Positions 13,211 through 34,941 of a stretch of DNA of 45,204 nt are shown here, piece after piece; the first letter of the stretch is position 1, and every line of letters starts with the position of its first letter. The position numbers and the translations under genes were made by a program. The stretch is from assembly GCA_937923745.1 (NCBI GenBank), contig CALDUO010000215.1, positions 1 through 45,204 on the forward strand, given 5' to 3'. The notes beneath the pieces were generated by a model that saw nothing but the letters and a program-made list of their open reading frames with translations, made no database searches and was not told the origin of the DNA. This stretch comes from an uncultured Granulosicoccaceae bacterium. Lineage in GTDB: Bacteria > Pseudomonadota > Gammaproteobacteria > Granulosicoccales > Granulosicoccaceae.

Positions 13211-14938
13211 GTGCCCAATAGTAGTGCAACCAATAAAGGCCTCGTGAATGTCGTGAAGCCCAAAATCAGAGTGGGATTGCTGGTTGATTCAGATGAGGTG
13301 CCACTCTGGGCGTACCAGATTGTCGAGCGGCTGGTCAGTAGTGACTATGCTGAAATCGCGCTGATTATCGAAAACGGCAGTCCTGGCGACAACACCAAAA
13401 CCCTTTTTAACAGAATTCTGAAAAACGCAGATCGTCTGCTGTATATCGGTTGGTCGATGTTCGACCAGATGCTGTACAGAAAACGCAAGCGCGGCGCGCC
13501 AATGGCCGATGACAAACGGTCGTTGTTGGAGTTGGTGGCGGATGTGCCGGTGATTCAGGTGCATCCGGTCATGTATGTGCATTCCGATTTTTTGCCGGAC
13601 GAAGACGTTCGCAAAATCAATGATCACAATCTTGACCTGATGTTTCGAATTGGGTTTCGGATTATGCGCGGCGAAATTTTGAACGCTGCCAGATACGGCA
13701 TTTGGTCGTATCACCATGGAGACAATCGACAATATCGCGGTGGCCCGGCAGGTTTTTGGGAGACGCTGACAGGTGCCCCCGAGGCGGGTACCGTGTTACA
13801 GATAATCACCGAAGATCTCGATGGTGGCAGCGTGTTGTATCGGTCCTGGTCGCTGACCGATATTTTGAGTCACACGCGACACAAAGACAATGTGTATATG
13901 AACTCCAATACACATCTGCCCCGTAAAATTGCAGAGCTACATCGGCTGGGCGAAACAGAATTTTTCCGGCGTATCAACAAGCAGAATCAGCACCCGCAGT
14001 TTTATTCGCGACGCCTGTATGTTGCGCCAAAGAATCTGGAAATGTTATTCCTTGCAGTGACTCACTATGGTCGATATGCATGGGCGAAATTGATAAAACT
14101 GTTTTGTTTCAGACAATGGATTTTGCTGGTAGCGCATCGCTCCAACGGTGAACTGTCTGAGTCGTTATGGCGATTTAAAAAAATCATCCCACCGGTTGAC
14201 CGTATCTGGGCTGACCCATTTGTTATCTATCGCGATAAAACCTATTTTGTGTTTATCGAAGAAATGCTGACCAGTCGTAATATTGGTCATATCTCGGTGC
14301 TGACCATTGACGAGCAAGGGCAGCACTCAACACCCATAAAAATTCTTGAAAAACCGTACCACCTGTCGTATCCGTTTTTGTTCGAATACGAGGATGAGCT
14401 CTACATGATTCCCGAGAGTGCTGCCAACCGAACCATAGATTTGTATCGCTGTACCGGTTTTCCGCATCAATGGGAACACGTGAAGACACTGATGAATGAT
14501 GTCTTTGCGGTAGATGCTACCTTGTTGGAATATGACGGACTGTGGTGGATGTTTGTGACTATTCGCGAGAATGCAGACACCGGTAGTCTTGATGAGCTCT
14601 TTTTGTTCTATGCTGACAATCCGCTATCTGATCAGTGGACACCGCATGTGGCGAACCCGGTTTGTTCCGATGTCAAACAGTCGCGTCCGGCCGGGCAAAT
14701 TTTTACCTATAACGGTAATTTTTATCGGCCTTCGCAGAACGGTAGTCACCGGTATGGCTACGGTATCAAAGTCAATCAAATAAAAACCCTGAACACCTCG
14801 GTGTATCACGAAGAATGTGTCAGTGATATCAAGCCCGAGTGGGACCGGTACATTAACGCTGTACACACATTGAATTACAATAATGGTATGACCGTCAGTG
14901 ACGCTAGCCTGTTGCGCTGGCGAGCATCACGAAGCTAA
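13211..14938 (+). CDS. formyltransferase-like / beta-propeller fusion, putative glycan-modifying enzyme
   Basis: A 575-residue two-part protein. Residues 15-270 resemble a formyltransferase Rossmann domain: an N-terminal IRVGLLVDS strand, then YHHGDNRQYRGGPAGFW and EDLDGGSVL, corresponding to the His-containing and Asp-containing loops of tRNA-fMet and sugar formyltransferases. The usual first catalytic Asn appears replaced (SYHHGD). Residues about 330-560 have repeated blades (IWADPFVIY, YPFLFEYEDELYMIPES, VDATLLEYDGLWWMF, SRPAGQIF), the five-bladed propeller type seen in glucosamine inositolphosphorylceramide transferase-like proteins and glycosidase families GH43/GH68. I infer action on a polysaccharide or lipid-linked sugar; the substrate is unknown. 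Start is GTG 13211; GTG 13244 or 13253 are alternatives. Confidence 0.7.
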   Translation: MPNSSATNKGLVNVVKPKIRVGLLVDSDEVPLWAYQIVERLVSSDYAEIALIIENGSPGDNTKTLFNRILKNADRLLYIGWSMFDQMLYRKRKRGAPMADDKRSLLELVADVPVIQVHPVMYVHSDFLPDEDVRKINDHNLDLMFRIGFRIMRGEILNAARYGIWSYHHGDNRQYRGGPAGFWETLTGAPEAGTVLQIITEDLDGGSVLYRSWSLTDILSHTRHKDNVYMNSNTHLPRKIAELHRLGETEFFRRINKQNQHPQFYSRRLYVAPKNLEMLFLAVTHYGRYAWAKLIKLFCFRQWILLVAHRSNGELSESLWRFKKIIPPVDRIWADPFVIYRDKTYFVFIEEMLTSRNIGHISVLTIDEQGQHSTPIKILEKPYHLSYPFLFEYEDELYMIPESAANRTIDLYRCTGFPHQWEHVKTLMNDVFAVDATLLEYDGLWWMFVTIRENADTGSLDELFLFYADNPLSDQWTPHVANPVCSDVKQSRPAGQIFTYNGNFYRPSQNGSHRYGYGIKVNQIKTLNTSVYHEECVSDIKPEWDRYINAVHTLNYNNGMTVSDASLLRWRASRS

Positions 14939-16131: not shown

Positions 16132-16297
16132 AAGAACAAAAGGCATAATAGACAAAGGGCATAATGAATACGGGACCTATTCAACGCGGTGACACCGTGT
16201 GATGTGCAGCGTTATTGCTTTACTATTTTGGTCAACGTTTACAAAGTGTTGCGCCATTTCAGAGGTTTGATTGACGGCTGAGCCGTTTAGACAGGAC

Positions 16298-17725
16298 ATG
16301 ACTATGACCACGTTGAAGTATTTGAGTATCAGGCCTGCGTTGTTGGCACTGGTGTGCACCATCACCCTGCAACCGGTGTTGGCGGCCGACGACACAACAG
16401 CTGGCACATCGGCATCAAAAAGTGCAATCGATACACTGCCTGAGGCAACAGGTGGTGAATGTTATGCAAAGGTCAGTGTGCCTGCGGTGTACAGCACAAC
16501 GCGTATCAATCCAGTCATAAAGGAGGCCACACAACTCATTACCGTGACGGAGCCTGAGTTTGGGGTGGATTATGAGCGTATTTTGCTCCGGGACTCATAC
16601 ACACGTTTGGTCGCCATACCCCCTGTGTACGAGACGGTGACTGAAACCATTGAGGTGGTTCCCAGTCGTTTGGTATGGGTCAGGGATAACGTCGAGAATA
16701 CCGTGCCGGTTGCGCCGGGGGTGCTGGACGATATCAAACGCACCGGCGTTGATGTGGGCGCCGTTGCTGCTGGTCAGTGTTTGTATGAGCACTTTGACGC
16801 CGGTGAGCCGAACATCAGTGAGCAGGAAGTGATAACGCATGTTGCGACAGAGCAGTTCGATATCATTCCGGCGAAACTGGAGCCCAGCTCGACACAGGTT
16901 CGAGTAAAACCTGCTTATGAAACCTTCATTGCAACACCTGCTGTATTTGAGACTATCGACGAGCCTGTGCTGATAGAGGCTGCACATTCAGTGTGGCGAA
17001 AGGGCCGGGGCCTGATCGAACGTATAGACAACACGACCGGAGAAATCATGTGTCGTGTCGATGTGCCTGCTGAGTACGAGACCATACAAAAGCAGGTTGC
17101 AAGGCAGCCCGCGGGTGTCAAGCGAATGATGATACCGGCAGAGTATGCAACCGTTACCACCGAAAAACTGATCGAAGACGCACAGGAATCTCGTGTTGCC
17201 ATTGCAGCCAAAACCCAGACGATTACACGGACGGAGTCTTTTGGCGAAGCACAATTTAGCTGGCTGGATGCAGTGGGTGACAATGCTACCGGTGTGTCTG
17301 TGTGTAAGCGCGAGTTTGAGTCTGAATATATCGACATTGAGCGTGTGCAGATTAAAACCCCGGGATACTACCAGTCGATAGAAGTACCGGCAGAGTATGA
17401 AAACAGAGAAATCGCCACACTTGAGAAGGCGGCTACCAATGTCATTGTGCCGGTACCGGCGGTCACGACCGAGCTGACGCAACGTGAACTGATCAGTGAT
17501 GCAAGACTGGAATGGCGGCCGGTTGTCTGTGAGACCAACATGACTAAAGATGTGGTGGTCAGGCTTCAGGAAGCTCTCAATGAGGCTGGCTATAGTGCCG
17601 GAACACCGGATGGCCTGTTGGGTCCCGGTACGTTGCGCGCGTTAACCCGGTTTCAGAATGCTAATGGTCTGCCGGAAGGTGGTGTCACCTACAGCACCAT
17701 AGAGGCGCTGGGTATCGACCTCTAG
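16298..17725 (+). CDS. secreted protein with four Cys-delimited modules and a peptidoglycan-binding domain
   Basis: A 475-residue exported protein. A signal peptide covers about the first 30 residues, ending near LAADD. The body has cysteines at 55, 161, 252, 336 and 411 that mark four related segments, each carrying copies of a VPAEY-type motif (VPAVYSTT, IPPVYETV, VPAEYETI, IPAEYATV, VPAEYENR) and most a W shortly before the next cysteine. Residues 415-475 form a PG_binding_1 domain (VVVRLQEALNEAGY, DGLLGPGTLRALTRFQ). It is probably periplasmic or wall-associated. I do not recognise the repeat module. The frame extends to TTG 16271, but ATG 16298 or 16304 gives a normal signal peptide. Confidence 0.75.
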   Translation: MTMTTLKYLSIRPALLALVCTITLQPVLAADDTTAGTSASKSAIDTLPEATGGECYAKVSVPAVYSTTRINPVIKEATQLITVTEPEFGVDYERILLRDSYTRLVAIPPVYETVTETIEVVPSRLVWVRDNVENTVPVAPGVLDDIKRTGVDVGAVAAGQCLYEHFDAGEPNISEQEVITHVATEQFDIIPAKLEPSSTQVRVKPAYETFIATPAVFETIDEPVLIEAAHSVWRKGRGLIERIDNTTGEIMCRVDVPAEYETIQKQVARQPAGVKRMMIPAEYATVTTEKLIEDAQESRVAIAAKTQTITRTESFGEAQFSWLDAVGDNATGVSVCKREFESEYIDIERVQIKTPGYYQSIEVPAEYENREIATLEKAATNVIVPVPAVTTELTQRELISDARLEWRPVVCETNMTKDVVVRLQEALNEAGYSAGTPDGLLGPGTLRALTRFQNANGLPEGGVTYSTIEALGIDL

Positions 17726-18399: not shown

Positions 18400-20319
18400 A
18401 TGAATAGGATATTCGCAGAAAAAAGCCAAACGGTTAAGTCGCCAGATACGGCCGCTAATGACGAGCGGTGCGATCTGGATGAGTCCCGTCAGGGTCTCGG
18501 CGACGCTGTGCCCGGCGACAGCTCACCATCCGACTCAGCTCCCTATTTTACTCCTGGTCTGTTACCCGACATACAGTTCTGGCTGGATTGGCAGTCTCGC
18601 ATGATCAGTGGCGTGGTGCAGGCATCTGTGCACTTGCATCATCAGCCCGACCGCAGCGATCTTCAGCGTGTTGCTGTATGGCCTGAAAACGCGGCCGAAT
18701 TCCTCGAAATAGAAAGCCTGGTGCAGCACTGTACCGCCAGCGGAGAAGTCGTTTCCAATACCGGCAGTGTGCTTGGTAAGGAAAAAGTTGAGGTACTGTT
18801 ATGTCCGGTCACAGTCAATGGCATTGGGGCCGGTGCGGTTTCTTTTGTGTTGCAATCCCGCCCTGAATCGCAACGTGATGCAGTGACACAGCTGGTTCAA
18901 TGGTGTGTCGTCTGGTTACAAAAAAGACTAACGGCTGCCGAGGCTTTCGTGTCAGGTAATCGGTCTGTGGTTGCGCAAGCGGTTGACTTGCTGGCCGCAG
19001 ACGGACCGCTGGAAGTCAATGGTATGAAGCTCTGCGACTATCTGGCCGAAACATACGCGTGCACACTGGTGGCGCTTGGACTTGCCGACGGGTTGCATGT
19101 GCGTACCGTCGCTGTCTCGCACCAATTGGTGTTTGATCGCAGGGTAACGCGTATTACCGAGCTCGAGCAGGCAATGGAGGAATGCCTTGATCAGCAACAG
19201 GCGATTCATGTACCGATGCCGACCGAGGAGGGAGGCAGTTTGACCAACGCGCACAACATCGTGCGGGACAATCACAATCAGTGTGCGGTGCACAGTGTGC
19301 CGGTAAAAAGCCGCGATAGCATTGTCGCTGTGCTGATTTTTGTCAAAGACAGCGGAACACCGTTTGAAAACACCCGTGGCAGGCAATTGCAGGCAGTCGC
19401 GGAGAGTCTTGGCCCGATTGTTCAGCTTCAGCGTGCGGTGAATCAATCCTTGTTGCACAGAGCTGGTAGTGTGCTGAAACGCACCGCAGAAAAGTTAACT
19501 GGCAGGGAGATTACCCGCTTTAAGTGTCTGGTTGGGCTGTGTATTCTGGTGCCGCTGCTGCTGGCCCTTGTGCCTGCGACGCATCGCGTGTCGGCAACCG
19601 CCATGCTCGAAGGTTCATTACAGCAGGCGATTGCAGCACCAGTCAGTGGTTATGTTAAGAGTGTTCACGTCAGGGCCGGTGACAGCGTCACACAAGGTCA
19701 GGTTTTAGCAACACTGGATGATAGCGAACTCAGGATTGAGTCACTGAAATGGCAAAGTGAAAAAGACAAGCTGACAAAAGAATACCAGCAGGCATGGGCC
19801 AATCGGGACAAGGCGCAGGTCACCATATTGGCATCACGGTTGGAGCAGGCTGAAACCCGATTACGACTTGTCGCAGAAAACCTGACCCACACCAAAATGG
19901 AAGCACCGTTCGACGGCATGTTGATCAGCGGTGATCTTAGCCAACAGGTTGGGGTGCCCGTCGAGCGTGGTCAACTGCTGTTTGAAATTGTACCTCTGGA
20001 AGGCTACAAGGTCATATTGCACGTGGATGAATTTGATATTGGTCAAGTAACCAAAGATCAGCCCGGCACACTTCGCCTCAGTGGTATGCCGGAAGAGCTT
20101 ATAGATATACAGATAGCGTCGATCTTTCCGCTGGCATCGAACGAACAGGGCAGCAGTTTTTTCAGGGTCGAGGCGCACATACCCAATCCGCCAGACAGCT
20201 TGCGCCCCGGTATGCAAGGTGTAGCGAAGGTTGCAGTCGGGCGAGCCAGTATCGGTTCGGTGTGGACACGCTCGCTACGTGAAAAGTTTAGTCTGTACCG
20301 TTGGTACCTTGGGTTTTAA
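18400..20319 (+). CDS. GAF-domain, membrane-anchored HlyD-like adaptor
   Basis: A 639-residue inner-membrane protein of unusual build. The long cytoplasmic N-terminal half includes a GAF-like fold (about residues 205-340). A single membrane segment lies at 376-395 (CLVGLCILVPLLLALVP). The periplasmic part is HlyD-like: a biotinyl-lipoyl half-motif (QAIAAPVSGYVKSVHVRAGD) from about 407, a coiled coil (SLKWQSEKDKLTKEYQQAW to the LEQAETRLRLVAENL region), a second lipoyl half (MEAPFDGMLISGDLS) and a beta-barrel domain. Adaptors of this type join an inner-membrane pump to an outer-membrane channel. The GAF part suggests control by a cytoplasmic ligand. The start is ATG 18400. It opens the accessory locus; the protease-adaptor gene follows after 29 bp. 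Confidence 0.85.
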   Translation: MNRIFAEKSQTVKSPDTAANDERCDLDESRQGLGDAVPGDSSPSDSAPYFTPGLLPDIQFWLDWQSRMISGVVQASVHLHHQPDRSDLQRVAVWPENAAEFLEIESLVQHCTASGEVVSNTGSVLGKEKVEVLLCPVTVNGIGAGAVSFVLQSRPESQRDAVTQLVQWCVVWLQKRLTAAEAFVSGNRSVVAQAVDLLAADGPLEVNGMKLCDYLAETYACTLVALGLADGLHVRTVAVSHQLVFDRRVTRITELEQAMEECLDQQQAIHVPMPTEEGGSLTNAHNIVRDNHNQCAVHSVPVKSRDSIVAVLIFVKDSGTPFENTRGRQLQAVAESLGPIVQLQRAVNQSLLHRAGSVLKRTAEKLTGREITRFKCLVGLCILVPLLLALVPATHRVSATAMLEGSLQQAIAAPVSGYVKSVHVRAGDSVTQGQVLATLDDSELRIESLKWQSEKDKLTKEYQQAWANRDKAQVTILASRLEQAETRLRLVAENLTHTKMEAPFDGMLISGDLSQQVGVPVERGQLLFEIVPLEGYKVILHVDEFDIGQVTKDQPGTLRLSGMPEELIDIQIASIFPLASNEQGSSFFRVEAHIPNPPDSLRPGMQGVAKVAVGRASIGSVWTRSLREKFSLYRWYLGF

Positions 20320-20348: not shown

Positions 20349-22496
20349 ATGATCAACGAACAAAGTGCCGCGATTTGGCAACAGGTGTCAGTGTTACGAC
20401 CTCGCCTGAGACGTCATATACGGGTGCGGCCCCAAGTGTACCGCCATGAAAAATGGTATGTATTACATGACGAGACGGCGGGTAAATTCTTACGCTTTAA
20501 TCAATCTGCCTACGATTTAATTGGCCGGTTTAACGGTGATTTGACCATTGCTGAAATCGTCGACTCTGTGAATACAAGACGAACAGAGGAGCACCAATGG
20601 GAAGTCGAAGATGTCTTGTTGGTGCTCGCCCAGTTACATGAGTTTGAAGCGCTGAAGGGTGGTCTGCCCATGAATGCCCGCGATGCATTGGCGCGTTTTC
20701 GACGGCACCGACGTTCTGGTTTTTTAAAGCAGTGGGCAAACCCGATATCGATGCGCATCCCACTGTTTGATCCCGATCAGTTATTGAATCGGTTGGTGGT
20801 CCCCGCACGCTGGCTGTTTTCAGCCGCAGGGTTTTATGTGTGGCTAGGACTACTGTTGATCGCAGCCATTTTGGTGGGCGTCAATCTGAACGGGTTAACG
20901 GCACAGATAGCCGAGAAAGCAGTATCAATGCCTAATCTGCTCGGGCTGTTGATCCTGTACCCGGTTGTAAAACTTTTGCATGAATTTGGTCATGGACTGG
21001 CGGTAAAAACCTGGGGCGGCGAGGTTCATGAAACCGGGGTTTTACTGCTGATATTTTTCCCGATCCCGTATGTCGATGCATCAGCTGCCTGGTCTTTCAG
21101 GGACAAGCGTAAACGTATCATTGTCAGTGCTGCCGGTATCATGGTGGAGCTTGCACTCGCCGCTATCGGTATCCTTGTCTGGAGTCTTTCCGAACCTGGT
21201 CTGGTGAATAGCCTGGCGCTGGATATTGCGATTCTGGGTGGTCTGTCAACGATACTGTATAACGGCAATCCGCTGTTGCGTTTTGACGGCTACTATGTGC
21301 TGGAAGATCTGACTGAAATACCCAACATGGGTGCACGATCGTCACGATATTATCTGTATTTGGCGCAACGTTATTTACTGGGTATAACCAACGCACGGTC
21401 CCCTGTTACCGCCAAAGGCGAAACCCGCTGGTTTCTGGTGTATGGGTTTCTGTCACCTTTGTATCGGTTGTTTGTATTGCTCGGTATTTCGATATACCTG
21501 GCTGGCCAGTACCTGGTTGTGGGTGTGGCATTAGCAGCGTTTGCCGTCTTCAAGCAAGTAGTACAACCGGTATACAGTGCCATAGCATTCCTGGTCAGTG
21601 ACTCCCGCGAGGGCTACAATCGTGTTCGCGGAATTTCTGTCACTGCGTTTGTGATAGTGCTGATCACTTTGGTAATGGTGGTTGAGCGTCCCCGGGTTAC
21701 CCGAACCCAAGGTGTTGTGTCAGTCCCGGACAGTGGCCAGATCAACGCCAAACATGGCGGGGAAATTATACAAGTTCTGGCAGCCACCGGCGATGTAGTC
21801 TCACAAGGCGACATTATCGTGCGCATGAAAAACCGTGAGATGGAGAGTCAACTTATCGCGCTGCAGGCAAAAGTTGCAGAGCTGAAAACGCTGGCGGCAC
21901 AAGAGCGACAAATCAGTCGTGTCAGAGGTAAAATAGCGGAGGCCAATGTCACTGCGGTGGTATCCGAATTACAGGAGCGCCAGCGATTGTTCGATGCCCT
22001 GTCGGTAAAGAGTCCAGCTGACGGCACCTTGGTTTTTGACAATCCGCATTTGCATGCCGGAGGCTACATTCAGGCGGGCGACACACTGGCCTACGTGGTG
22101 CAAAACGATCAATCAGTGGTTCGTGCTGTGGTGGATCAGGACAGTATTGGTGGCTTTGACGCTGGCGTGACCGGTGCCGAGGTTGTATTAGCCAACCGTC
22201 CGGGTGTGATCATTAATGCATCGGTTGTGCGTGCGGTACCTGCAGCGGGCTCCAGGCTTCCCAGTCGTGCTTTGGGCGTGCCCGGCGGTGGCCCGATACC
22301 GGTGAGCCCCGCTGATCCTTCGGGGCTACATGCCATTCATCAAGTGTTTCAGTATGACCTCTCTATGCCGGCGGGTACCGCGATAGCAGGAATTGGTGAG
22401 CGAGCTTATGTGCGCCTGACTCATGGCTCAGAAAGATTGTGGCGACAGCTGTTCAGGCGTTTTCAGCAACTCTTTTTGTCACAACTGGGTATTTAG
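20349..22496 (+). CDS. PqqD-like / M50 membrane protease / HlyD chimera
   Basis: A 715-residue multidomain membrane protein. Residues about 20-95 resemble a PqqD-like peptide-binding domain (KFLRFNQSAYDLIGRF, TIAEIVDSVN). A multi-pass region carries the site-2-protease zinc site: HEFGH at 211-215 and NPLLRFDG at 307-314, both intact. After a last membrane segment (about 430-448) comes a periplasmic HlyD-type part with a lipoyl half (DSGQINAKHGGEIIQVLAAT), a short coiled coil (ESQLIALQAKVAELKTLAAQ), a second half (SPADGTLVFDNP) and a beta-barrel. M50 enzymes cut substrates in or near the membrane, and PqqD-like domains often present peptides to partner enzymes. The open frame extends to TTG 20301 within the preceding gene; ATG 20349 is preferred. 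Confidence 0.85.
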   Translation: MINEQSAAIWQQVSVLRPRLRRHIRVRPQVYRHEKWYVLHDETAGKFLRFNQSAYDLIGRFNGDLTIAEIVDSVNTRRTEEHQWEVEDVLLVLAQLHEFEALKGGLPMNARDALARFRRHRRSGFLKQWANPISMRIPLFDPDQLLNRLVVPARWLFSAAGFYVWLGLLLIAAILVGVNLNGLTAQIAEKAVSMPNLLGLLILYPVVKLLHEFGHGLAVKTWGGEVHETGVLLLIFFPIPYVDASAAWSFRDKRKRIIVSAAGIMVELALAAIGILVWSLSEPGLVNSLALDIAILGGLSTILYNGNPLLRFDGYYVLEDLTEIPNMGARSSRYYLYLAQRYLLGITNARSPVTAKGETRWFLVYGFLSPLYRLFVLLGISIYLAGQYLVVGVALAAFAVFKQVVQPVYSAIAFLVSDSREGYNRVRGISVTAFVIVLITLVMVVERPRVTRTQGVVSVPDSGQINAKHGGEIIQVLAATGDVVSQGDIIVRMKNREMESQLIALQAKVAELKTLAAQERQISRVRGKIAEANVTAVVSELQERQRLFDALSVKSPADGTLVFDNPHLHAGGYIQAGDTLAYVVQNDQSVVRAVVDQDSIGGFDAGVTGAEVVLANRPGVIINASVVRAVPAAGSRLPSRALGVPGGGPIPVSPADPSGLHAIHQVFQYDLSMPAGTAIAGIGERAYVRLTHGSERLWRQLFRRFQQLFLSQLGI

Positions 22497-22622: not shown

Positions 22623-22706
22623 ATGTGGCAAGTGAGGATGTTCATTGATTGTCGATTGACTGATGAGGTGGCTTTTACTCATCGGTTAGGAATGCAGAGC
22701 GCATGA
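22623..22706 (+). CDS. possible 27-residue leader ORF coupled to the next gene
   Basis: A short frame starts at ATG 22623, 7 nt after AGAGGGA (22609-22615), the best ribosome-binding site in this interval, and its TGA overlaps the next gene's ATG (ATGA at 22703-22706). The product (starting MWQVRMFIDCRL) has no recognised motif. The site and the stop-start overlap suggest translational coupling of the downstream adaptor; it may be chance. Confidence 0.3.
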   Translation: MWQVRMFIDCRLTDEVAFTHRLGMQSA

Positions 22707-24202
22707 TCCAATCAGTAGGCACAATAATTAAACAAAGATTAATAAGCGCTCGCTGGATAATCCCGTTTTGTTTGTTGTCTGTATCACCGTTCGTTTTTGC
22801 CTCCTCATTTACTGATGTAGCCTCGTTGGACGCTACCGCAATTGGCGAGCTGGATTGCGTTATCTATCCCAGTGCGCAAGCTGATATTGGCAGCGGTGTT
22901 CCTGGCGTGCTGGTCAGCATACCGGTTGATCGTTCAGACACTGTCAAAAAAGGGCAGGTCGTGGCGGTGCTTGAATCGAGTGCCGAGCAAGCGGCTGTTG
23001 CGCTTGCCAAAGCGCGGGCAGAAGCGGCATCTGAAATCAGTTTCAGGCGCATCGGTGCTGAACATTCCAAGCGCCAGCTGGTGCGTCTCGAGGAACTCTA
23101 TCGTAACAAATCCATATCCAACCAAGACTACGATGACCGCAAAACCGAAGCGCTGCTGGGGCAAGTCCAATTGCAACAGGCTAGGGAAAACCAGAGTATT
23201 CTTGAATTAGAGTTAGCTCGCGCTCAAGCGCTGCTTGATCGAAAAACGATACGTAGTCCTTTCGACGGAGTGGTGCTGGAACGCGTCAGCGTAGTTGGTG
23301 AGTTTGTTAACGATCAGCCCATTGTTCGAATCGCCCAACTGAATCCGTTGCATGTTGAAACTATTTTACCCAGTGAGTATATCCGCGACATAAAGAGTGG
23401 TATGACTGCTCGGGTATGGTCTGATCATCATCCGGATAGGATATCTACCGCTCACGTTGATCGGGTGGATTCAATCATTGATGTGGCCAGTGCGACATTT
23501 GGCGTGCGCCTCAATTTGGCCAACACCAATCAGGACATAGCGGCAGGCTCGCGATGCAGGCTGGAATTTACATCGTCTGATGATGCGCAAGCGAGCTCAG
23601 GGGTTATGTCAGCTGAAACACAGTATCAAACCGCCTCCGCCGCCGCATCCTTTTATTCAGAACCTGTGTCCTATCCAGAACCTGTCATGGGTGCGGCCTT
23701 AGGTGATGTGCTGGTCAATAGTGAGCCTTTGGCAACAAACGCTCGGGTGGTTAACGGTGCCGCTCAGCAGGGCTCAGGCCCCTTGGACTCAGGCCACTTG
23801 GACTCAGGCCATTGCAAGAGTGTTGGGCCTTATCCTGACCGGGAAAGTGCTCGTATTGCGCTGAACAAACTGGCCCACAAAGACGGAGAGCTCGCGGTTA
23901 AGGAGATAACCACAGAGCGGCAGATCGGTTACCTTGTCATGTCGTATCCCCTGGACACGAATAAAAAAATCAATGACTATCTCGCAAAGATAAACACGCT
24001 GGGTATCACTGATTTTCAACTCCAGAAAAAAAACCTGCCCGCCAAAGTGTCGTTTGGTGCCTTCAAAAACAGATCCTCTGCAGAAAATCTATTAAGTGAC
24101 CTGTCTGCCAAGAACCTAACAGTCAGAATGCTGCCATGGCAGCGAAGTATGCCTGCGTATTTCCTGGTGGAGCAACAAGATGGTGCGCCAGGCGCATGCT
24201 GA
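22703..24202 (+). CDS. exported HlyD-type adaptor with C-terminal SPOR-like region
   Basis: A 499-residue periplasmic protein. A signal peptide (about residues 1-33, ending near VFASS) is followed by an RND/HlyD adaptor core: a lipoyl half at about 55-92 (QADIGSGVPGVLVSIPVDRS), a coiled coil (RQLVRLEELYRNKSISNQDYDD), the second half (IRSPFDGVVLERV) and a barrel (LNPLHVETILPSEYI). A Ser/Ala-rich linker with a short LDSGH duplication leads to a SPOR-like region from about 370 (CKSVGPYPDRESARIALNKL, and VSFGAFKNRSSAENLLSDL later). SPOR domains normally bind denuded peptidoglycan, so this adaptor could be held at the wall. This domain pairing is unusual. ATG 22703 overlaps the possible leader ORF. 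Confidence 0.8.
   Translation: MIQSVGTIIKQRLISARWIIPFCLLSVSPFVFASSFTDVASLDATAIGELDCVIYPSAQADIGSGVPGVLVSIPVDRSDTVKKGQVVAVLESSAEQAAVALAKARAEAASEISFRRIGAEHSKRQLVRLEELYRNKSISNQDYDDRKTEALLGQVQLQQARENQSILELELARAQALLDRKTIRSPFDGVVLERVSVVGEFVNDQPIVRIAQLNPLHVETILPSEYIRDIKSGMTARVWSDHHPDRISTAHVDRVDSIIDVASATFGVRLNLANTNQDIAAGSRCRLEFTSSDDAQASSGVMSAETQYQTASAAASFYSEPVSYPEPVMGAALGDVLVNSEPLATNARVVNGAAQQGSGPLDSGHLDSGHCKSVGPYPDRESARIALNKLAHKDGELAVKEITTERQIGYLVMSYPLDTNKKINDYLAKINTLGITDFQLQKKNLPAKVSFGAFKNRSSAENLLSDLSAKNLTVRMLPWQRSMPAYFLVEQQDGAPGAC
23782..23811 (+). repeat. 15-bp direct duplication inside the adaptor linker
   Basis: The unit CTTGGACTCAGGCCA occurs twice in a row, giving the repeated LDSGH peptide between the adaptor core and the SPOR-like region. 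It looks like recent linker slippage and preserves the reading frame. Confidence 0.6.
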
Positions 24203-24275: not shown

Positions 24276-27200
24276 ATGCGAAAACCTCGCGGTTTAAAAC
24301 CTTATAGTGCACTGAGCCATGGTGTAGCCAAAGCCTCACAGCGCGCTAAATCAACACACAGACACCATCCGGTTGCAGAAATATTGCAACCAAGAATACT
24401 ACTGTCGGCGGATATTCCGGGTCTGGAGCTTTCCTTACTGGATAAAAATACGGTGTCGACAGACCTGCGGGATCTTGTGTCGAACGCGTATGCACAATAC
24501 GCCGAGCTCCCACCTGAACAGGTTACGCTAACGACAGAGCCTGTCGCTAACGCTGATGCGGGCCATGAGAACGTGGTGGCGCTTGAGCCATACGCACCAA
24601 AGCCTGAACTGACGGCTGTACACACAGAGCTCACCGCTGTGCTGAATGATTATGCGGCTCATAACAGTGAATTCAGTGCTGCCAATGATCCAGCCATGAA
24701 TGCCGCTGACCGGTCTTTCAGCGGACCGTTGACGATTGATAACATACAGGGCGCAGCGCCGTCGCAGACGCATTTATCAACACCACAAAATCTCACCGAG
24801 AACACGGCTGTTGTGTTCAGCACTGCCAACAGTAATGCGATTGTTGTTACAGACAACGATGCATCGACAGATGTCAGGTTACAAGTTGAGCTGTCGGTTC
24901 AGGACGGCACACTGACTCTGTCACAAACGACAGGCCTGACCACAGTCGGGGGAGCCGATGGGACTAACCTGATCATCATTCAGGGCTCTGAGTCAGACAT
25001 CAATGCAGCACTGGAAGGCCTCACCTATACACCCGATACGAACTATACAGGGCCGGATACCTTGTCGGTTGAGACGTCTTTGGGTGCAGAGCTTGTCGGT
25101 CACTATACGTTTGATAGCGGTAACGCAAATGACTCCAGTGCCGGCACGAGCGAACACGGCACTCTGAACGGCACTGCAACTGTCACTACCGATGCGAGTC
25201 GCGGAGATGTGCTGAACCTGGCTACAGCCGGTGATTATGTAGAGATCAACTCTGTGTATGGTACACCGGCTGATGTGACGTTGGCCGCGTGGGTAGATGT
25301 CACAGCAATTGACACCAGTGGTGGCGAGATTATTTCTTTGGGGTCCAACGTATCGTTGCGGCTTGACGCCGCTGGTGATCTGACGCTGGCTTATGAGAAT
25401 GGTCTCGGCCAACAGTACACTACAGTAACCGGGTCGCAGTTGGTAGGTGCCGGCTGGCATCATGTCGCGGCGACGTTTGATGACGCCAATGATGTGGTAA
25501 CCCTGTACATTGATGGTGTGGTGGTTGAGACATCAAATACTATCGACTCAATTGGTTACTTGCATGACACTGTTACCCGATTGGGTGCTCATACTGACCC
25601 GTTGGAAAATGCCGATTTGCAGGGTAATCTTGATGATGTTCGACTCTACTCGCGTGCGTTGTCTGCTGATGAAATAAACAATCTCGCCAATGACACTACA
25701 TCTGTCCAATCGATGGTTGCATTGCAGGTGCATGCTGCCAATAACACATCGCCGACAATTGCGACTTCCACCATACTGGTCAATGGGGATTTTCAGACAG
25801 GTAACCTGACGGGTTGGACGTCGACCGGTACGGTGTCCGTAGACGGAAGCGAAGTTAGATTTGGTGAAAATGATGCGATAGGCCCTCACTCGATCTCGCA
25901 GTCATTTACGACAGAGATAGGGCAGAGGTATCTGGTCAATTATGTGATACGTGACGACAGTGCATCGGCAAGCCAAACCATTCAGGTATCGATTGATGGC
26001 AACACAAATAATGCTATTAGCACCAGGGAGTCGTCGCTAGTCGGTACACACTATTCTGCGACAACGACAAGCTTTGTCGCAGATTCGACGACTACCACCA
26101 TTACAATAACAGATATTTCTACTGACTCAGTTGGCGTTGACGGATTTCTTCATGAAGTTACTGTCGGCGAAGTACCAACATTTACATCTGTCGCTGCGAA
26201 TGATGTCAATAATCCCGGCAATACAGTGGGGTCGTTGTTAGCCAGTGTTTCTGACGACAGAGTTACTGATCCGGATTCGGGTGCTGTCGAAGGTATAGCG
26301 ATAACAAATCAAACGGCAGGCTTCGAGTATTCAATTGACGGTGGCGCGACGTGGCAGACGATAACCAACCCGTCGTCGGTTAACGCACTGCTGCTGCGTG
26401 AGACTGATTTGGTACGCTTTGCCGCTACTGGAGTAACAACGGGAAACCAATTTATAATTTTTGCTGCCTGGGATCAGACCAGCGGGGCTGCCGGTACATA
26501 TGTGAGCGTACTAAATCCACCTGCTGACAGTGCTTTTTCGCGATTCACAGATCGTGCGATTATTGAAGTGACTGTGGCGACTAACACAGCACCTGAATTT
26601 GGTTCGCAAGCTGGCTTTGCCGTGGGTCATGGTGAGTCCGGTGAGGTGCAAAATGCTGCGCAGCTTGTATTGCCGGACGGGAGTATTCTGTTCACCCCAT
26701 TTAATAGCAATTCTGTGTCTGTAGTTGGAAAACTGGACCCAATGGGACAGTTAGACACTGATTTTGGAACTGACGGTTTTTTTGATTACTCGTCATTGAC
26801 TTATATAAGCAGCCTTGCAGTGCAGTCAGATGGCAAGTATCTGGTTGGGGGTGTGACGGGGAATGACATTGCCATTGCGCGGTATCACACGGATGGAACG
26901 TTGGATACAGACTTTGGCATTGCAGGTGTTGTTACCACAGATTTAAGCACGGATGATAAGGTGCTCGACGTTACGATCCAGACTGACGGTAAAATCATAG
27001 TCAGCGGCGAAAGTGGTGTCGACGCTATTATTATTCGTTACAACGCAGACGGCAGTCTTGACACTACCTTCAATGTTACCGGTTATGTCACCGTAGATCT
27101 CGGCAGTGATTTTGATTACTTTGACTCTGTGTTGGTGCAAGCCGACGGTAAATTTTTGGCAAGCGGAAATACGAACATTGTCAGGTTTAACACGGACGGT

Positions 27201-30200
27201 AGTTTAGACATGTCGTTTGATGGTGATGGCGTTGTCGATGTAGGTCATAGTGTAAAAGGTATGTTGCTTCAGGCAGACGGCGACATAGTCATCACCGGCA
27301 ATCAGACCCAACCGCTGAAATTAATGATAGGCCGATACAACAGCGACGGGTCCGTCGACACAACTTTTGGCACTGCAGGTTTTACTGTGCTGTCAAATCC
27401 GGATATTGGCGCATCGTTTGGTGAAGATATTGTTCAACAGGCAGACGGAAAATTACTGGTAGGTGGAGAAGCAAGGACCAGCACAAGCCCCGACGGTTAT
27501 GAATTGACGGTAGTGCGTTTTAACAGTGATGGTACCCTTGACACTCAGTTCGCTGATAATGGGATATGGCTCTCCGGTTATACACCTGCTTTGGCAGAGG
27601 GCCTGGACGTGTCACTGTATAACGACAACGGCTCTGAAAAAATTGTCATAGGCGGCTATTCCTCTCAATTTGGTCCCGCAAGACCGGTCGTCGCCCGATT
27701 AGATGCAGATGGTTCTCTAGACACCGCGTTTTCGTCTGGACAGCTCGATGGCAGTGGTGCTTTTATTGAGAACGGTGGCGCTGTGGTAATGGACAGCAAC
27801 GTACAGATTTTCGATAACGAACTCGATGCAGCGAACGATTATGGTGGTGCGAGTCTGACGTTGGCTCGTGACGGGGGTGCTAATGCTGACGACGAATTTA
27901 GTGCCACGGGTGAACTTAACTTTAATGCTGGCATCCTTGAGCTTTCGTCTGTTGCGGTCGGTACCTACACACAAAGTGACGGATTACTCGAACTGGAATT
28001 TAGCGCAGGTACGACCAATGAGCAGGTCAATCGTGTCATGCAGTCTATTGCGTATACGAATACCAGCGACACGCCTCCAGCCAGTGTTCAGATTAAATGG
28101 ACCTTCGGTGATGGTAATGCGGGTAATCAGGGAAGCGGTGGCGAGCAGCTAGCGGTTGGGTTTACGACAGTGACGATAACCGCTGTGAATGATGCGCCAA
28201 CCAACATTGGAGGGTTGCCTGCAGTTGTCACGGTGACAGAAGATGTAATCACCAGTGTTGATCTCTCCGCCATAGATTTGCAAGACGCTGATGCTGCAGG
28301 CTTACTAACGATACAAATCAGTACCACCACAGGTGGATACCTGCATGCCTCGTCTGCCAATGGGGTGACTGTTGCTGATAGTGGTAGCTTTGCACTGTCC
28401 CTGACCGGTAGCCAGGCCGACCTGAACCAGTATTTGAATACGCCCGATGTCATTGGTTACGTGCATGCAACGCCTGACAATACAGGTTCAGGTGCCGATA
28501 GACTCAATATCGATGTCACTGACAATGGAAACACCGGATTCGGTGGCGGTGGTTATATCTCTCTGGGCACGGTGTCTGTTTTTATTAGTGGCGTTAACGA
28601 TGCCCCTGTTGTGTCTGACAATGCTGCAACTGTGACTTATATGTCCGGCACGGTAGCGGTAGACTCAGCACTGACAGTGTCTGACATTGACAGCAGTACG
28701 CTGGAATCAGCGCAAGTCAGTATAGGAACCGGGTACTCCCAGGCTCACGACCGGCTTGTGTTCATCAATACCCCCAGTGTGACGGGTACTTTCGACAATA
28801 CCACGGGTATATTGACCCTCACAGGCGTTGCCAGTGTTGCCGACTATCAGTCTGCACTTCGGGATGTGCAATTCGAAAACACTGACCCGAGTGCTACGCC
28901 GGGTAATAGAACCATAGAAATTGAAGTATTCGATGGAACAGATACCAGCCAGGTAGAGACCCGCACCATTGAGGTTGTCTCAAACGAACCGCCGCAAGCA
29001 AGAGATGATTTGTTGACGGTGGCAGAGGGCGTCTCGGTAAGCATTTTTGTGAATGGCAACGATACCGATGCAGAAAACTCACTGGATGTTGCCAGTATCA
29101 ACATTGTTACTGGTCCTGCGCACGGCAGCGTTACGGTCAATAACAATGGTTCTGTTGTGTATACACACGACGGGTCAGAGACACTCAGCGATAGTTTTAC
29201 CTACACGATCAATGATACCGACGGCAATACGTCTAATGTTGCAACTGTGGCATTGGTGGTTGATCCTGTTAATGACAGTCCGCAAATAGCGCTCAATACC
29301 GGTATGACAGTTGAAGAGGGCTCTGTTGGTAATGTACTTACCGATGCGATGCTCAACGAAGGTGATCCGGATGATGCCGGGCCCTCTCTTATCTACACGT
29401 TGACACAGAATGTCAGTCACGGTTCGTTACAACTGAACGGTAGCGTGTTGGACTTGGGCATTTACTTTTCACAAAGTGATATTGCTGCGGGTCGTGTCAC
29501 CTATGATCATGATGGTAGTGAAACTTTAAGTGATTCCTTTGAGTTTCAGCTTGTGGATCAAGGAGAAGATAATGCGGTACCTGCCACCGGTGTCTTTCAG
29601 GTGACGGTGTTACCGGTGAATCAGGATCCGGTTAACGCAGGTGGCTTGCCCACGGTTGTGTCAGTGACAGAAGACATCTTGTCTGATATTGATATCTCTG
29701 CCATTGAAGTTGCAGACAGTGATCATGGAGGGGGTAATTTAACCGTCGAATTGGCAACGACTGGCGGAGGCGACCTCTATGCCAGTGCAGCCAACGGTGT
29801 CTCTGTTGTAGGCAGTGGCACTGAAACGTTGCTGCTGGAAGGTTCATTGGCTGCGATCAATGATTTTTTAAATCAAACTAACAGCATGCAGTATTTGCAT
29901 AGTGTTGCCAATACTACTGGTGATGCGGTCGATACCATAGTCATTACCGTCAACGATAACAATAACTCGGGTTCAGGTGGCGGAGAGGATCAGGACTTTG
30001 GCAGTGTCTCGGTGAATATCACGTCGGTCAATGATACTCCTGCATTCGTCTCTGATACTGAATTTATTGTGACTGAAAACAGCCTTGCTATAGGCATTGT
30101 GAATACTGTCGATATTGACGGTGGCGCACCGCGATACAGTGTAGTGGGCGGTACTGATGAATCTCTGTTCACCATCGATAGCAACACGGGGGTATTGTCG

Positions 30201-31814
30201 TTTCAGACTGCACCTGACTTTGAAACGCCAGCTGACGCAGGTGGCGACAACACTTATGACTTAACCGTTCAGGTTGACGATCAGCAGGGTGGTATCACGT
30301 TGCAGCAGATCACTGTGTCTGTTAGTGATGTTGGCGAAGCACCTGCTTTTGACTCTGCTGCCCTCAGTAGTATCAACGAAGACCAACTCTACACCTATGA
30401 TGTTAGTGTCAATGACCCGGATGCCAGTGACACGCTGACCATTACAGCTGCTGAGTTGCCTGATTGGCTCGCACTGATCGATCACGGTGACGGTACCGCG
30501 ACGCTCTCGGGGACACCGGGGAATAATGAAGTTGGTTCGCACGCAATCAGGTTGCAGGTCACCGATGGCATGTCGGTGGATTATCAGGATTTCACATTGA
30601 CGGTAGCCAACGTCAATGATCAGCCAGTGATCGTTAGTCATGGTGGCACCGAGGTAGCAACCATTGCGATGGCCCGTGACGAAGCAGTCGTTACAACGAT
30701 TGTGGCTACTGAGCAAGATGTGAATGACACGCCGACCTACACCATCACTGGTGGTATGGATGCGGGTTCCTTCGCGATTGATGCTGATTCTGGTGTTGTC
30801 ACGTTCGCAGCGTTTGGTGATGCAGGCCAACCGTTTGATGCAAACGGAGACGACGTATTCGAAGTCGAAGTGACGGTCACTGACGGTGCTGGAGCGTCTG
30901 ATTCACAGATGTTACTGATCGCTAGGGAACCGTTGCCCGAGGTCGCCGAGGCACTCGGTGTCGAAGAACCGCAACCAGAACCGCAACCAGAACCGCAACC
31001 AGAGCCACAACCAGAACCTTCACCGGAGTCTGCGGTAGATCCTGAGCCCTCAACAGCGCCACAGCCGTTACCAGAACCGGTACCAGAGGCTGTGCCGGAA
31101 TCAATACCAGAACAGCCGGATGACACTGATGTGTTCTATGTGCCTGTAGGCCCGGCAGACGTTTCGCCAAGTGTCGCGCCAGACGCTGTTGTGGCCGTCG
31201 ACACTGACACGGAAACCATGGATGAGGTGCCTGTCATTGAAAAGACAGGTGTCGTTGAGGAGAGTGCAGGTTTTCCGCGAGTCTCTTTACCCGAGCAGCT
31301 ACCTGTTGAAGGTTTTACGGCGGCTGCCAGTGAGTTAGTGGCACCCGAGACCGTGCAGATCATTCAGGCTGATGATTCGGTGGTCGAGGCACCTCCTGAG
31401 CTGACCACCCTTCAAAAGCTTCTGCAATCCTGGAAAAATAAAGCTGTACCTGAATTTGTGGGGATACCTGAAGACGTGACAATAACGCCTTTTTACCGTG
31501 ATCTTGATCGAATGAATCATGACATGGAGGAGGCAGGTAAAGCCGAGCAGTCGAAGCAAGAGTTTAGTGTACAAACCGTTGCCGGGCTGACGGTCACCGC
31601 AACCGCGGGTTTCCTGAGTTGGATATTAAGGGCTGGATCAATGGTTGCTAGTTTAATCACCAGCCTGCCCGCGTGGCGTCAGTTTGACCTGCTGCCTATC
31701 GTCTCTGGTCGTGAAAAAGCATTGCAGGGCGACGGAAATAACCATTCTTCAGACGCTACAGGTGACGACGGTGCGTCGATAGACACCAAAGTAGACCGGT
31801 TGATCGGTAAATAA
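24276..31814 (+). CDS. giant LEPR-XLL-type surface protein
   Basis: A 2512-residue predicted surface protein. The N-terminus has LQPRILLSAD (37-46), a variant of the LEPRxLLSAD signature found near the start of very large bacterial surface proteins. In order follow a cadherin-like repeat (about 165-265), a LamG/concanavalin-type domain (270-478), a carbohydrate-binding-like beta-sandwich (504-632), seven delta-60 repeats forming a probable propeller (789-1158), several cadherin, CSPG and tandem-95-type Ig repeats (about 1180-2220), a PEPQ-rich linker (about 2230-2280) and a hydrophobic C-terminal segment (about 2430-2475, AGFLSWILRAGSMVASLI) before a polar tail. No RTX nonapeptides and no LPXTG are visible. 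I infer adhesion or glycan binding outside the cell. ATG 24276 is the start; no strong ribosome-binding site is seen. Confidence 0.85.
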   Translation: MRKPRGLKPYSALSHGVAKASQRAKSTHRHHPVAEILQPRILLSADIPGLELSLLDKNTVSTDLRDLVSNAYAQYAELPPEQVTLTTEPVANADAGHENVVALEPYAPKPELTAVHTELTAVLNDYAAHNSEFSAANDPAMNAADRSFSGPLTIDNIQGAAPSQTHLSTPQNLTENTAVVFSTANSNAIVVTDNDASTDVRLQVELSVQDGTLTLSQTTGLTTVGGADGTNLIIIQGSESDINAALEGLTYTPDTNYTGPDTLSVETSLGAELVGHYTFDSGNANDSSAGTSEHGTLNGTATVTTDASRGDVLNLATAGDYVEINSVYGTPADVTLAAWVDVTAIDTSGGEIISLGSNVSLRLDAAGDLTLAYENGLGQQYTTVTGSQLVGAGWHHVAATFDDANDVVTLYIDGVVVETSNTIDSIGYLHDTVTRLGAHTDPLENADLQGNLDDVRLYSRALSADEINNLANDTTSVQSMVALQVHAANNTSPTIATSTILVNGDFQTGNLTGWTSTGTVSVDGSEVRFGENDAIGPHSISQSFTTEIGQRYLVNYVIRDDSASASQTIQVSIDGNTNNAISTRESSLVGTHYSATTTSFVADSTTTTITITDISTDSVGVDGFLHEVTVGEVPTFTSVAANDVNNPGNTVGSLLASVSDDRVTDPDSGAVEGIAITNQTAGFEYSIDGGATWQTITNPSSVNALLLRETDLVRFAATGVTTGNQFIIFAAWDQTSGAAGTYVSVLNPPADSAFSRFTDRAIIEVTVATNTAPEFGSQAGFAVGHGESGEVQNAAQLVLPDGSILFTPFNSNSVSVVGKLDPMGQLDTDFGTDGFFDYSSLTYISSLAVQSDGKYLVGGVTGNDIAIARYHTDGTLDTDFGIAGVVTTDLSTDDKVLDVTIQTDGKIIVSGESGVDAIIIRYNADGSLDTTFNVTGYVTVDLGSDFDYFDSVLVQADGKFLASGNTNIVRFNTDGSLDMSFDGDGVVDVGHSVKGMLLQADGDIVITGNQTQPLKLMIGRYNSDGSVDTTFGTAGFTVLSNPDIGASFGEDIVQQADGKLLVGGEARTSTSPDGYELTVVRFNSDGTLDTQFADNGIWLSGYTPALAEGLDVSLYNDNGSEKIVIGGYSSQFGPARPVVARLDADGSLDTAFSSGQLDGSGAFIENGGAVVMDSNVQIFDNELDAANDYGGASLTLARDGGANADDEFSATGELNFNAGILELSSVAVGTYTQSDGLLELEFSAGTTNEQVNRVMQSIAYTNTSDTPPASVQIKWTFGDGNAGNQGSGGEQLAVGFTTVTITAVNDAPTNIGGLPAVVTVTEDVITSVDLSAIDLQDADAAGLLTIQISTTTGGYLHASSANGVTVADSGSFALSLTGSQADLNQYLNTPDVIGYVHATPDNTGSGADRLNIDVTDNGNTGFGGGGYISLGTVSVFISGVNDAPVVSDNAATVTYMSGTVAVDSALTVSDIDSSTLESAQVSIGTGYSQAHDRLVFINTPSVTGTFDNTTGILTLTGVASVADYQSALRDVQFENTDPSATPGNRTIEIEVFDGTDTSQVETRTIEVVSNEPPQARDDLLTVAEGVSVSIFVNGNDTDAENSLDVASINIVTGPAHGSVTVNNNGSVVYTHDGSETLSDSFTYTINDTDGNTSNVATVALVVDPVNDSPQIALNTGMTVEEGSVGNVLTDAMLNEGDPDDAGPSLIYTLTQNVSHGSLQLNGSVLDLGIYFSQSDIAAGRVTYDHDGSETLSDSFEFQLVDQGEDNAVPATGVFQVTVLPVNQDPVNAGGLPTVVSVTEDILSDIDISAIEVADSDHGGGNLTVELATTGGGDLYASAANGVSVVGSGTETLLLEGSLAAINDFLNQTNSMQYLHSVANTTGDAVDTIVITVNDNNNSGSGGGEDQDFGSVSVNITSVNDTPAFVSDTEFIVTENSLAIGIVNTVDIDGGAPRYSVVGGTDESLFTIDSNTGVLSFQTAPDFETPADAGGDNTYDLTVQVDDQQGGITLQQITVSVSDVGEAPAFDSAALSSINEDQLYTYDVSVNDPDASDTLTITAAELPDWLALIDHGDGTATLSGTPGNNEVGSHAIRLQVTDGMSVDYQDFTLTVANVNDQPVIVSHGGTEVATIAMARDEAVVTTIVATEQDVNDTPTYTITGGMDAGSFAIDADSGVVTFAAFGDAGQPFDANGDDVFEVEVTVTDGAGASDSQMLLIAREPLPEVAEALGVEEPQPEPQPEPQPEPQPEPSPESAVDPEPSTAPQPLPEPVPEAVPESIPEQPDDTDVFYVPVGPADVSPSVAPDAVVAVDTDTETMDEVPVIEKTGVVEESAGFPRVSLPEQLPVEGFTAAASELVAPETVQIIQADDSVVEAPPELTTLQKLLQSWKNKAVPEFVGIPEDVTITPFYRDLDRMNHDMEEAGKAEQSKQEFSVQTVAGLTVTATAGFLSWILRAGSMVASLITSLPAWRQFDLLPIVSGREKALQGDGNNHSSDATGDDGASIDTKVDRLIGK
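30965..31020 (+). repeat. 12-bp tandem repeat encoding PEPQ
   Basis: Four near-identical copies of a GAACCGCAACCA-like unit encode the PEPQ run that links the last cadherin-type domain to the C-terminal region. Such Pro/Glu linkers are stiff and commonly span an envelope layer. Confidence 0.85.
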
Positions 31815-34800: not shown

Positions 34801-34941
34801 CTCGAAAATGCTATTGAGCAGCGAAAAATGCTGCGTACCTTAAGCGCCAGCAAACAGCAGGATGTGGTGTTTAACAATGCGATTATCGATGGTGTTCTTA
34901 ATGAGATAGACGAACTCTATCGGTCGATAGAGGTGGGTTGA
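31837..34941 (+). CDS. membrane GGDEF-EAL c-di-GMP turnover protein with PAS and degenerate second GGDEF
   Basis: A 1034-residue inner-membrane signalling protein. Two membrane segments (about 7-25 and 149-170) enclose a periplasmic sensor. A PAS-like region follows (about 190-320), then a coiled-coil stretch and a GGDEF domain with an intact GGEEF at 426-430. The usual inhibitory RxxD site just before it is absent. A second GGDEF-like domain (about 560-735) has lost its signature (MGVTELIVVV). The C-terminal EAL domain has ETL at 774-776 with the catalytic Glu, NFS, EITES, DDFGTG at 895-900, the KID lysine and EGVE all kept, so it can probably hydrolyse c-di-GMP. It starts 22 bp after the giant-protein gene, suggesting control of that protein. 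Confidence 0.93.
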   Translation: MLNISPIVRLAIGVTLLASTVLLMLDHFGYIPNKAENDLASRKATAELLAVHATAMVNANQVSELQQSLAMLLTRNESMSSAALRLDSGDLLFTTGNHALHWKPTSDGRSTINHIVVPIFDGDNRWGAVEISYYDQQRSILSWLKSGSVGPLVLLMGLFGFLINWIFLKRALKELDPSAVVPERVSMALDILAEGLAMIDRSGRVVLTNTSLETTLGQSKSALVGTHLSALDWSECGVEASSEEAEQADAKKSAKRIEAPWDLILGSEIDPEPTQMSVTNAYGESVRFAVNAVAIRSGDGVLKGVVVTFDNVTDIEKKNVRLENVVKQLKVSKLEIERKKNELEVLATRDSLTGVLNRRSLFEGMQALTREAGASKKPLSCIMTDIDHFKKVNDNYGHATGDEVIVLMAQILTDNMDPTALVGRYGGEEFVVALPDTDESQAAIYAEKLRQLLYACESLPSGQAIRLSASFGVATDHTGLIPPGELVDNADKALYKAKESGRNRVVKLSDIDNVGPANTIEHDTGSTDNAPKADAASAVVKTVPADTEASGTSESDLGKDANAERDIVLADRISQGIERSKRLGTHVAVLSVSIEAMDVISGATGNAEAVKIIKGVIDRINGIIRTSDVVSAPSAPQGVSVSKMGVTELIVVVTDISDTKNITWIGKRVSEAVSAPIDYNGADINLDARIGISLFPGDGDYTQTLIANSRMALRDAKRADTRNSVVYYDENMNTSSEKLLLLENQLQKALGQDELFLVFQPMVNLATGKLSGFETLVRWNNPQYGLISPVQFIPIAEQSGLIRSIGLWIFENAARQLKKWRDNGHTDISISVNFSAIQIIQSDIFETVLGVVQRLQVPPEHITIEITESAIIDDLDTASEKIRAFQHAGFKIALDDFGTGYSSLVYLKRMSIDIVKIDRSFFIDYPSNQRDAAIVSAIITLSHNLGLKVVAEGVETDGQLAAIASMQCDTVQGYVFAAPLSRQQATNLLENAIEQRKMLRTLSASKQQDVVFNNAIIDGVLNEIDELYRSIEVG

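Follow-up and report, generated by a model that had tools for sequence, protein, structure and literature searches.

We analyzed a 45,204-nt stretch of DNA from an uncultured Granulosicoccaceae bacterium (contig CALDUO010000215.1), referred to below as the window, which contains an operon encoding, in this order, a GAF-HlyD protein, a fused RRE-M50-HlyD protein, a HlyD-SPOR protein, a giant protein of 2512 aa and a PAS-GGDEF-EAL protein. The features of this operon are as follows.

18400-20319, + strand: GAF-like and HlyD adaptor protein, 639 aa, the conserved upstream partner
20349-22496, + strand: RRE/PqqD-like, M50 and HlyD protein, 715 aa (translation, Pfam, NCBIfam, AlphaFold)
20400-20663, + strand: its N-terminal RRE/PqqD-like domain, predicted cytosolic, residues 18-105 (AlphaFold, Foldseek; NF041824 alignment from residue 20)
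20823-21680, + strand: seven predicted membrane helices holding the M50 core, residues 159-444 (AlphaFold, flanking charges)
20979-20993, + strand: HEFGH, residues 211-215; HExxH invariant in 146/146 homologues
21267-21290, + strand: NPLLRFDG, residues 307-314, with D313 as the presumed third zinc ligand; D invariant in 146/146
21684-22436, + strand: periplasmic HlyD/MexA-type adaptor domain, residues 446-696 (Pfam, Foldseek)
22703-24202, + strand: HlyD adaptor with a C-terminal SPOR domain, 499 aa, its HlyD part being the conserved downstream partner
24276-31814, + strand: giant cadherin, delta-60 repeat and lectin-like protein, 2512 aa, the proposed substrate (Pfam, NCBIfam)
24384-24413, + strand: LEPR-XLL-like motif LQPRILLSAD, residues 37-46 of the giant
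31611-31703, + strand: hydrophobic C-terminal segment FLSWILRAGSMVASLITSLPAWRQFDLLPIV of the giant
31837-34941, + strand: PAS-GGDEF-EAL protein, a neighbour conserved in the family

Beyond the operon there are housekeeping genes (Rnf, metG, an ApbC-like ATPase). Two further frames precede it on the + strand, one of 484 aa (16271-17725) with a peptidoglycan-binding domain at its C-terminus and repeats of the PA.YE type, and one of 575 aa (13211-14938) that, judged by eye, joins a formyltransferase-like N-terminal half to a beta-propeller-like sugar-transfer half. The surrounding genes that were inspected include no evident RiPP-modifying enzyme and no daptide enzyme; two TolC-type frames are present elsewhere in the window's genome. 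The SPOR (peptidoglycan-binding) domain sits at the C-terminus of the third adaptor (22703-24202), most of whose homologues, at about 280-320 aa, are too short to contain it.

In the initial annotation, the 715-aa protein was described as a PqqD-like domain, an M50 protease and a HlyD adaptor joined in one polypeptide, and this three-part architecture is borne out by Pfam, NCBIfam and AlphaFold/Foldseek. The opposite strand of 20349-22496 has stops throughout, and translation places HEFGH at residues 211-215 and NPLLRFDG at residues 307-314, exactly as claimed. Pfam assigns Peptidase_M50 at 28.5 bits (cut-off 27.2) and HlyD_3 (PF13437) at 36.6 bits (cut-off 22.2). The whole-chain AlphaFold model (pLDDT 83.7) is composed of the N-terminal domain, seven long hydrophobic helices and the adaptor, which has the barrel-sandwich and hairpin fold of HlyD/RND membrane fusion proteins and resembles MexA/MacA in Foldseek (E about 1e-11); with HlyD_3 above its cut-off, the periplasmic part was rightly read as a secretion adaptor. 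The charges flanking the helices are consistent with a cytosolic N-terminus and a periplasmic adaptor. Among NCBIfam models, the daptide intramembrane protease NF041824 scores best (139 bits, E 1.6e-40, residues 20-402; below the equivalog cut-off of 300 bits), and its alignment spans both the N-terminal domain and the M50 core.

PqqD sequence models alone would not carry the claim of an RRE, as the window protein scores 17.2 bits against NCBIfam PqqD TIGR03859 (cut-off 46; E 0.0035) and Pfam PqqD PF05402 matches only 3 of 28 homologues. The fold itself is supported by structure prediction. Residues 1-120 modelled alone reached a pLDDT of 93.6 with the element order b-b-b-a-a-a, that is, the three strands and three-helix winged fold of RRE/PqqD domains, and the first six PDB matches in Foldseek were RREs solved with leader peptides (TbiB1, lasso-peptide synthetase B1; prob 0.99-1.00, target TM 0.68-0.74, E 0.009-0.07), the modest E-values being expected for 90 residues. 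The PqqD-like domain proposed at the N-terminus thus stands as a fold, with sequence support that is weak and below the PqqD cut-offs.

The M50 core has the hallmarks of a site-2 protease, namely a HExxH in a membrane helix and a third-ligand motif of the NPxxxxDG type, in addition to the Pfam score above cut-off. HEFGH lies within a predicted helix (194-221), and NPLLRFDG follows another (285-305). We aligned 146 homologues, 138 of them mutually less than 80% identical, and observed no variation at H211, E212, H215, N305, N307 and D313. Loss of the zinc site in most members had been named beforehand as one outcome that would refute the initial reading; it is lost in 0/146. Since the site is invariant in a family whose deepest members share about 22% identity, a purely structural role seems unlikely. 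Enzymes of the M50 family carry out intramembrane cleavage.

The locus type itself is not new. Operons of GAF-HlyD, M50, SecA_DEAD and HlyD genes were described in 2015 by Kamneva, Poudel & Ward (PMC4452313), who envisaged a machine resembling type I secretion, in which the M50 protein might be the pore; the role of the locus was given as "completely unknown", no substrate was named and the zinc site was not discussed (PMC4452313). The GAF-HlyD, M50 and HlyD genes occur together in the window operon, in the same order, whereas the SecA-like gene that often adjoins the M50 gene in homologues is absent from this operon and from those of its closest relatives. The same gene set was identified in 80 loci from named genomes (Pseudomonadota, Myxococcota, desulfobacterial and Nitrospira-type organisms), and the SecA-like ATPase gene is usually located 3' of the M50 gene. 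GEGKT and other ATPase residues are invariant in the SecA-like proteins of these loci. No secondary SecA_DEAD protein is encoded in the window operon, and the window's genome (about 85% complete) has one SecA match, which scores like canonical SecA. In many relatives (L067-L082), a PAS-GGDEF-EAL gene adjoins the HlyD genes even where no giant is encoded locally, so c-di-GMP signalling seems to be linked to the secretion system; a histidine-kinase hybrid takes its place in two loci (L032, L182).

The giants encoded beside the family loci share an N-terminal motif: nearly all of those with an intact start carry LEPRLLLSAD or a variant 10-60 residues in. The initial annotation had pointed to a LEPR-XLL region in the window giant; what is present there is a LEPR-XLL-like motif, LQPRILLSAD (residues 37-46), which agrees in position and shape with LEPR-XLL motifs and is probably a diverged form of them. 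It is below the reach of the NCBIfam LEPR-XLL model NF012209 and is recovered (E 7.6e-4) by a broader model, A2, built without the sequence of the window giant. One LEPR motif (G362:C115, 112877-112921) lies within a frame that stays open for 19,427 codons and would possibly encode one of the longest bacterial proteins. Weak matches to the planctomycete N-terminal motif Planc_extracel (PF07595; E 0.1-0.2) were noted in giant N-termini, at residues 53-67 of one giant (L120), where the match overlaps the LEPR motif, and at residues 83-95 of another (L150); the two motifs may be one signal. At the other end of the window giant, a hydrophobic segment with a central Arg is followed by PAWR..DLLPIV, and related segments, hydrophobic and followed by P.W...DP[LV], occur in the giants of eight loci (L033, L055, L107, L108, L114, L137, L180, L182). 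This segment had been suggested as an alternative substrate, a suggestion that fails for the family at large, as the segment is absent from the giants of the D[AG]A class described below and conserved in one giant class only. It is possibly a membrane anchor or a sorting signal of its own.

The proposal that the LEPR-XLL region is the partner of the protease was addressed by genome-wide searches. The protease search and both motif models covered one set of 276 genomes of the class (sample 1); of the motif models, A2 was also applied to a second draw of 199 genomes of the phylum (sample 2), a minority of them already present in sample 1. With A2 at E<=0.01, LEPR giants were found in 29/40 sample 1 genomes having the M50 protein versus 2/236 lacking it (Fisher p = 7e-28). 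Because A2 was trained on giants adjoining the protease, the NCBI model NF012209 was run as an independent check, and at E<=0.001 it gave 19/40 versus 2/236 (p = 2e-16). In sample 2, A2 yielded 54/63 versus 1/136 at E<=0.05 (Fisher p = 6e-38), and 42/63 versus 0/136 at E<=0.01. In both samples, the genomes that underlie these counts are related by descent; protease and LEPR giants vary together in 14 of the 15 contrasts within GTDB families (counted by hand; sign test). In the window's family, LEPR giants occur in every protease-bearing genome but one, with as many as nine in a genome and most of them on contigs other than that of the protease, and in none of the three protease-free genomes. 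On contigs having both, the giant lies from 1 kb to more than 1 Mb from the nearest protease gene, and distances such as 648 kb and 1.07 Mb mean that the pairing is not explained by linkage. An obligatory position of the giant beside the protease can be dismissed, many family loci having no local giant and their genomes encoding LEPR giants elsewhere. The pairing has an exception in a genome without an M50-HlyD protein (G225), which encodes a giant of 7373 aa with the motif LEQRLLLS(TS) (L175:1-11947). The motif went undetected in 11/40 protease genomes of sample 1 and 9/63 of sample 2, some of which contain diverged motifs (LEKRIVLDGA, LEQRVVLDAA). One LEPR match (G117), near the C-terminal end of its frame rather than at the N-terminus, was treated as chance.

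The SecA-like protein was detected in 15 of the 40 protease genomes, always alongside the protease, which excludes it as an obligatory motor in the remaining 25. Among genomes without it, the LEPR pairing persists (15/25 with the protease versus 2/236 without; p = 5e-16). As the SecA-like protein is limited to 15/40 genomes and the pairing holds in its absence, sequence comparison points to the protease-adaptor as the constant part of the system, with the ATPase as an optional one.

The giants carry one of two motif classes, ending in ..L[LFY]SAD or ..[LF]D[AG]A. A tree of 37 proteases, each with a giant next to it, requires a single change of class, on a branch with support 100, and none of 500 shuffles gave a count as low. 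D[AG]A-class operons encode their own TolC-type protein, and no SecA-like gene was seen among the loci of this class that were read. One genome (G014) has both protease types, each adjoining a giant of the matching class. The tracking of protease clade by motif class fits specific recognition, and co-inheritance of the pair would look identical. Together with the genome-wide pairing, it supports the LEPR-XLL region as the partner of the protease, as the initial annotation had it. The link between the protease-adaptor and LEPR-XLL giants as its putative substrates appears to be new. No paper joining LEPR-XLL, DUF4347 and secondary SecA was found in the open-licence PMC literature.

Daptide proteases, in which a site-2 protease carries an RRE at its N-terminus, go with a leader motif, ELExMEAP, and have been assigned leader removal (PMC10036551), and related M50 enzymes cut RiPP precursors (PMC10885120). 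By analogy with the former, we propose, with a probability of roughly 0.6, a dedicated secretion route in which the RRE binds the LEPR-XLL leader, the M50 protease cuts at or near the motif and the HlyD domain passes the giant outward. For this route we infer leader binding, cleavage, the order of events, the motor and the exit. The 715-aa protein would be its invariant inner-membrane core: the cytosolic RRE/PqqD-like domain would bind the N-terminal leader of the giant (here LQPRILLSAD), the fused protease would cut at or just past the motif, near ..SAD, early in export, and the fused HlyD domain with the two further HlyD adaptors would lead the polypeptide through the periplasm as far as an outer-membrane protein of the TolC type. 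The motor may be the SecA-like ATPase where one is present; for the window's organism, whose genome yielded no such protein, we assume that housekeeping SecA or an unlinked factor takes this part.

The main rival of this route, which we regard as unlikely, is a release switch in the style of LapD/LapG-LapA, where the giant, once exported, would remain anchored to the complex in the inner membrane, through its N-terminal leader or, in the window's case, through the hydrophobic segment at its C-terminus, until the M50 protease cuts this tether under GGDEF/EAL control. The conserved GGDEF/EAL or histidine-kinase neighbour is in keeping with such a switch, as are the intramembrane cutting typical of M50 enzymes and the C-terminal hydrophobic and P.W...DP segments of eight relatives' giants, a near form of which is found in the window giant. 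However, giants of the D[AG]A class lack this segment while the zinc site is equally conserved, and the predicted cytosolic location of the RRE-type domain fits recognition before export. Still less probable is a pore acting without proteolysis, the M50 protein replacing an ABC transporter as a membrane channel driven by the SecA-like ATPase, as put forward by Kamneva et al. (PMC4452313). It would account for operons that lack an ABC transporter and for SecA-like proteins with intact ATPase motifs in many loci, but not readily for the invariance of every catalytic residue, the presence of the SecA-like protein in only 15/40 protease genomes and the pairing that persists without it.

Two further explanations remain. 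That protease and giants co-occur merely through genome size or an adhesin-rich lifestyle is very improbable: several giants are common in carrier genomes, as expected of surface-living bacteria, but in the same 276 genomes the giants of two-partner secretion (TPS), used as a control, showed no association with the protease (16/40 versus 74/236, p = 0.28), the within-family contrasts agree in 14/15 cases and motif class tracks protease clade. We give hardly any credence to the last explanation, by which the locus makes a modified small peptide and the giants are mere neighbours; the combination of RRE and M50 is indeed a RiPP arrangement (daptides, epipeptides, pearlins), but the genes examined around the operon include no evident RiPP-modifying enzyme, and the association with giants is genome-wide and extends to unlinked ones.

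We retain the dedicated secretion route as the preferred reading. In its general form, which we hold to be slightly better than an even bet, RiPP-style leader recognition and an intramembrane leader peptidase, fused to an adaptor, would form the sorting and processing gate for widespread giant surface proteins (frames reaching about 19,000 codons) in Pseudomonadota as well as other phyla, the protease-adaptor and not the SecA-like ATPase being the constant part. LEPR-XLL giants are among the longest bacterial proteins, and their exit from the cell is not explained in the open-licence literature searched. Joining them to the locus described in 2015 reduces the questions of substrate and of exit to tests of one gene or one Glu. 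If true, the proposal would mean that the leader/RRE principle of small peptides also holds for secreted proteins of very large size.

The protein shares with the daptide protease MpaP (NF041824; PMC10036551) the N-terminal RRE and M50 core, and the daptide partner peptide likewise has an N-terminal motif of the ELE type. It differs in that the NF041824 family model has no HlyD domain and the daptide substrate is a short RiPP precursor, as opposed to the giant proposed here.

Vibrio parahaemolyticus mfpABC was considered as a known example of the system and rejected, since published descriptions make MfpB an ABC-type transporter and MfpA a calcium-binding protein. In type I secretion with a peptidase-containing ABC transporter and in LapD/LapG retention, leader cleavage or release is joined to the HlyD/TolC-type export of large proteins, as would be the case here. 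Unlike these systems, that of the window has no ABC transporter, its protease is a metalloprotease rather than a cysteine protease, and this protease is fused to the adaptor.
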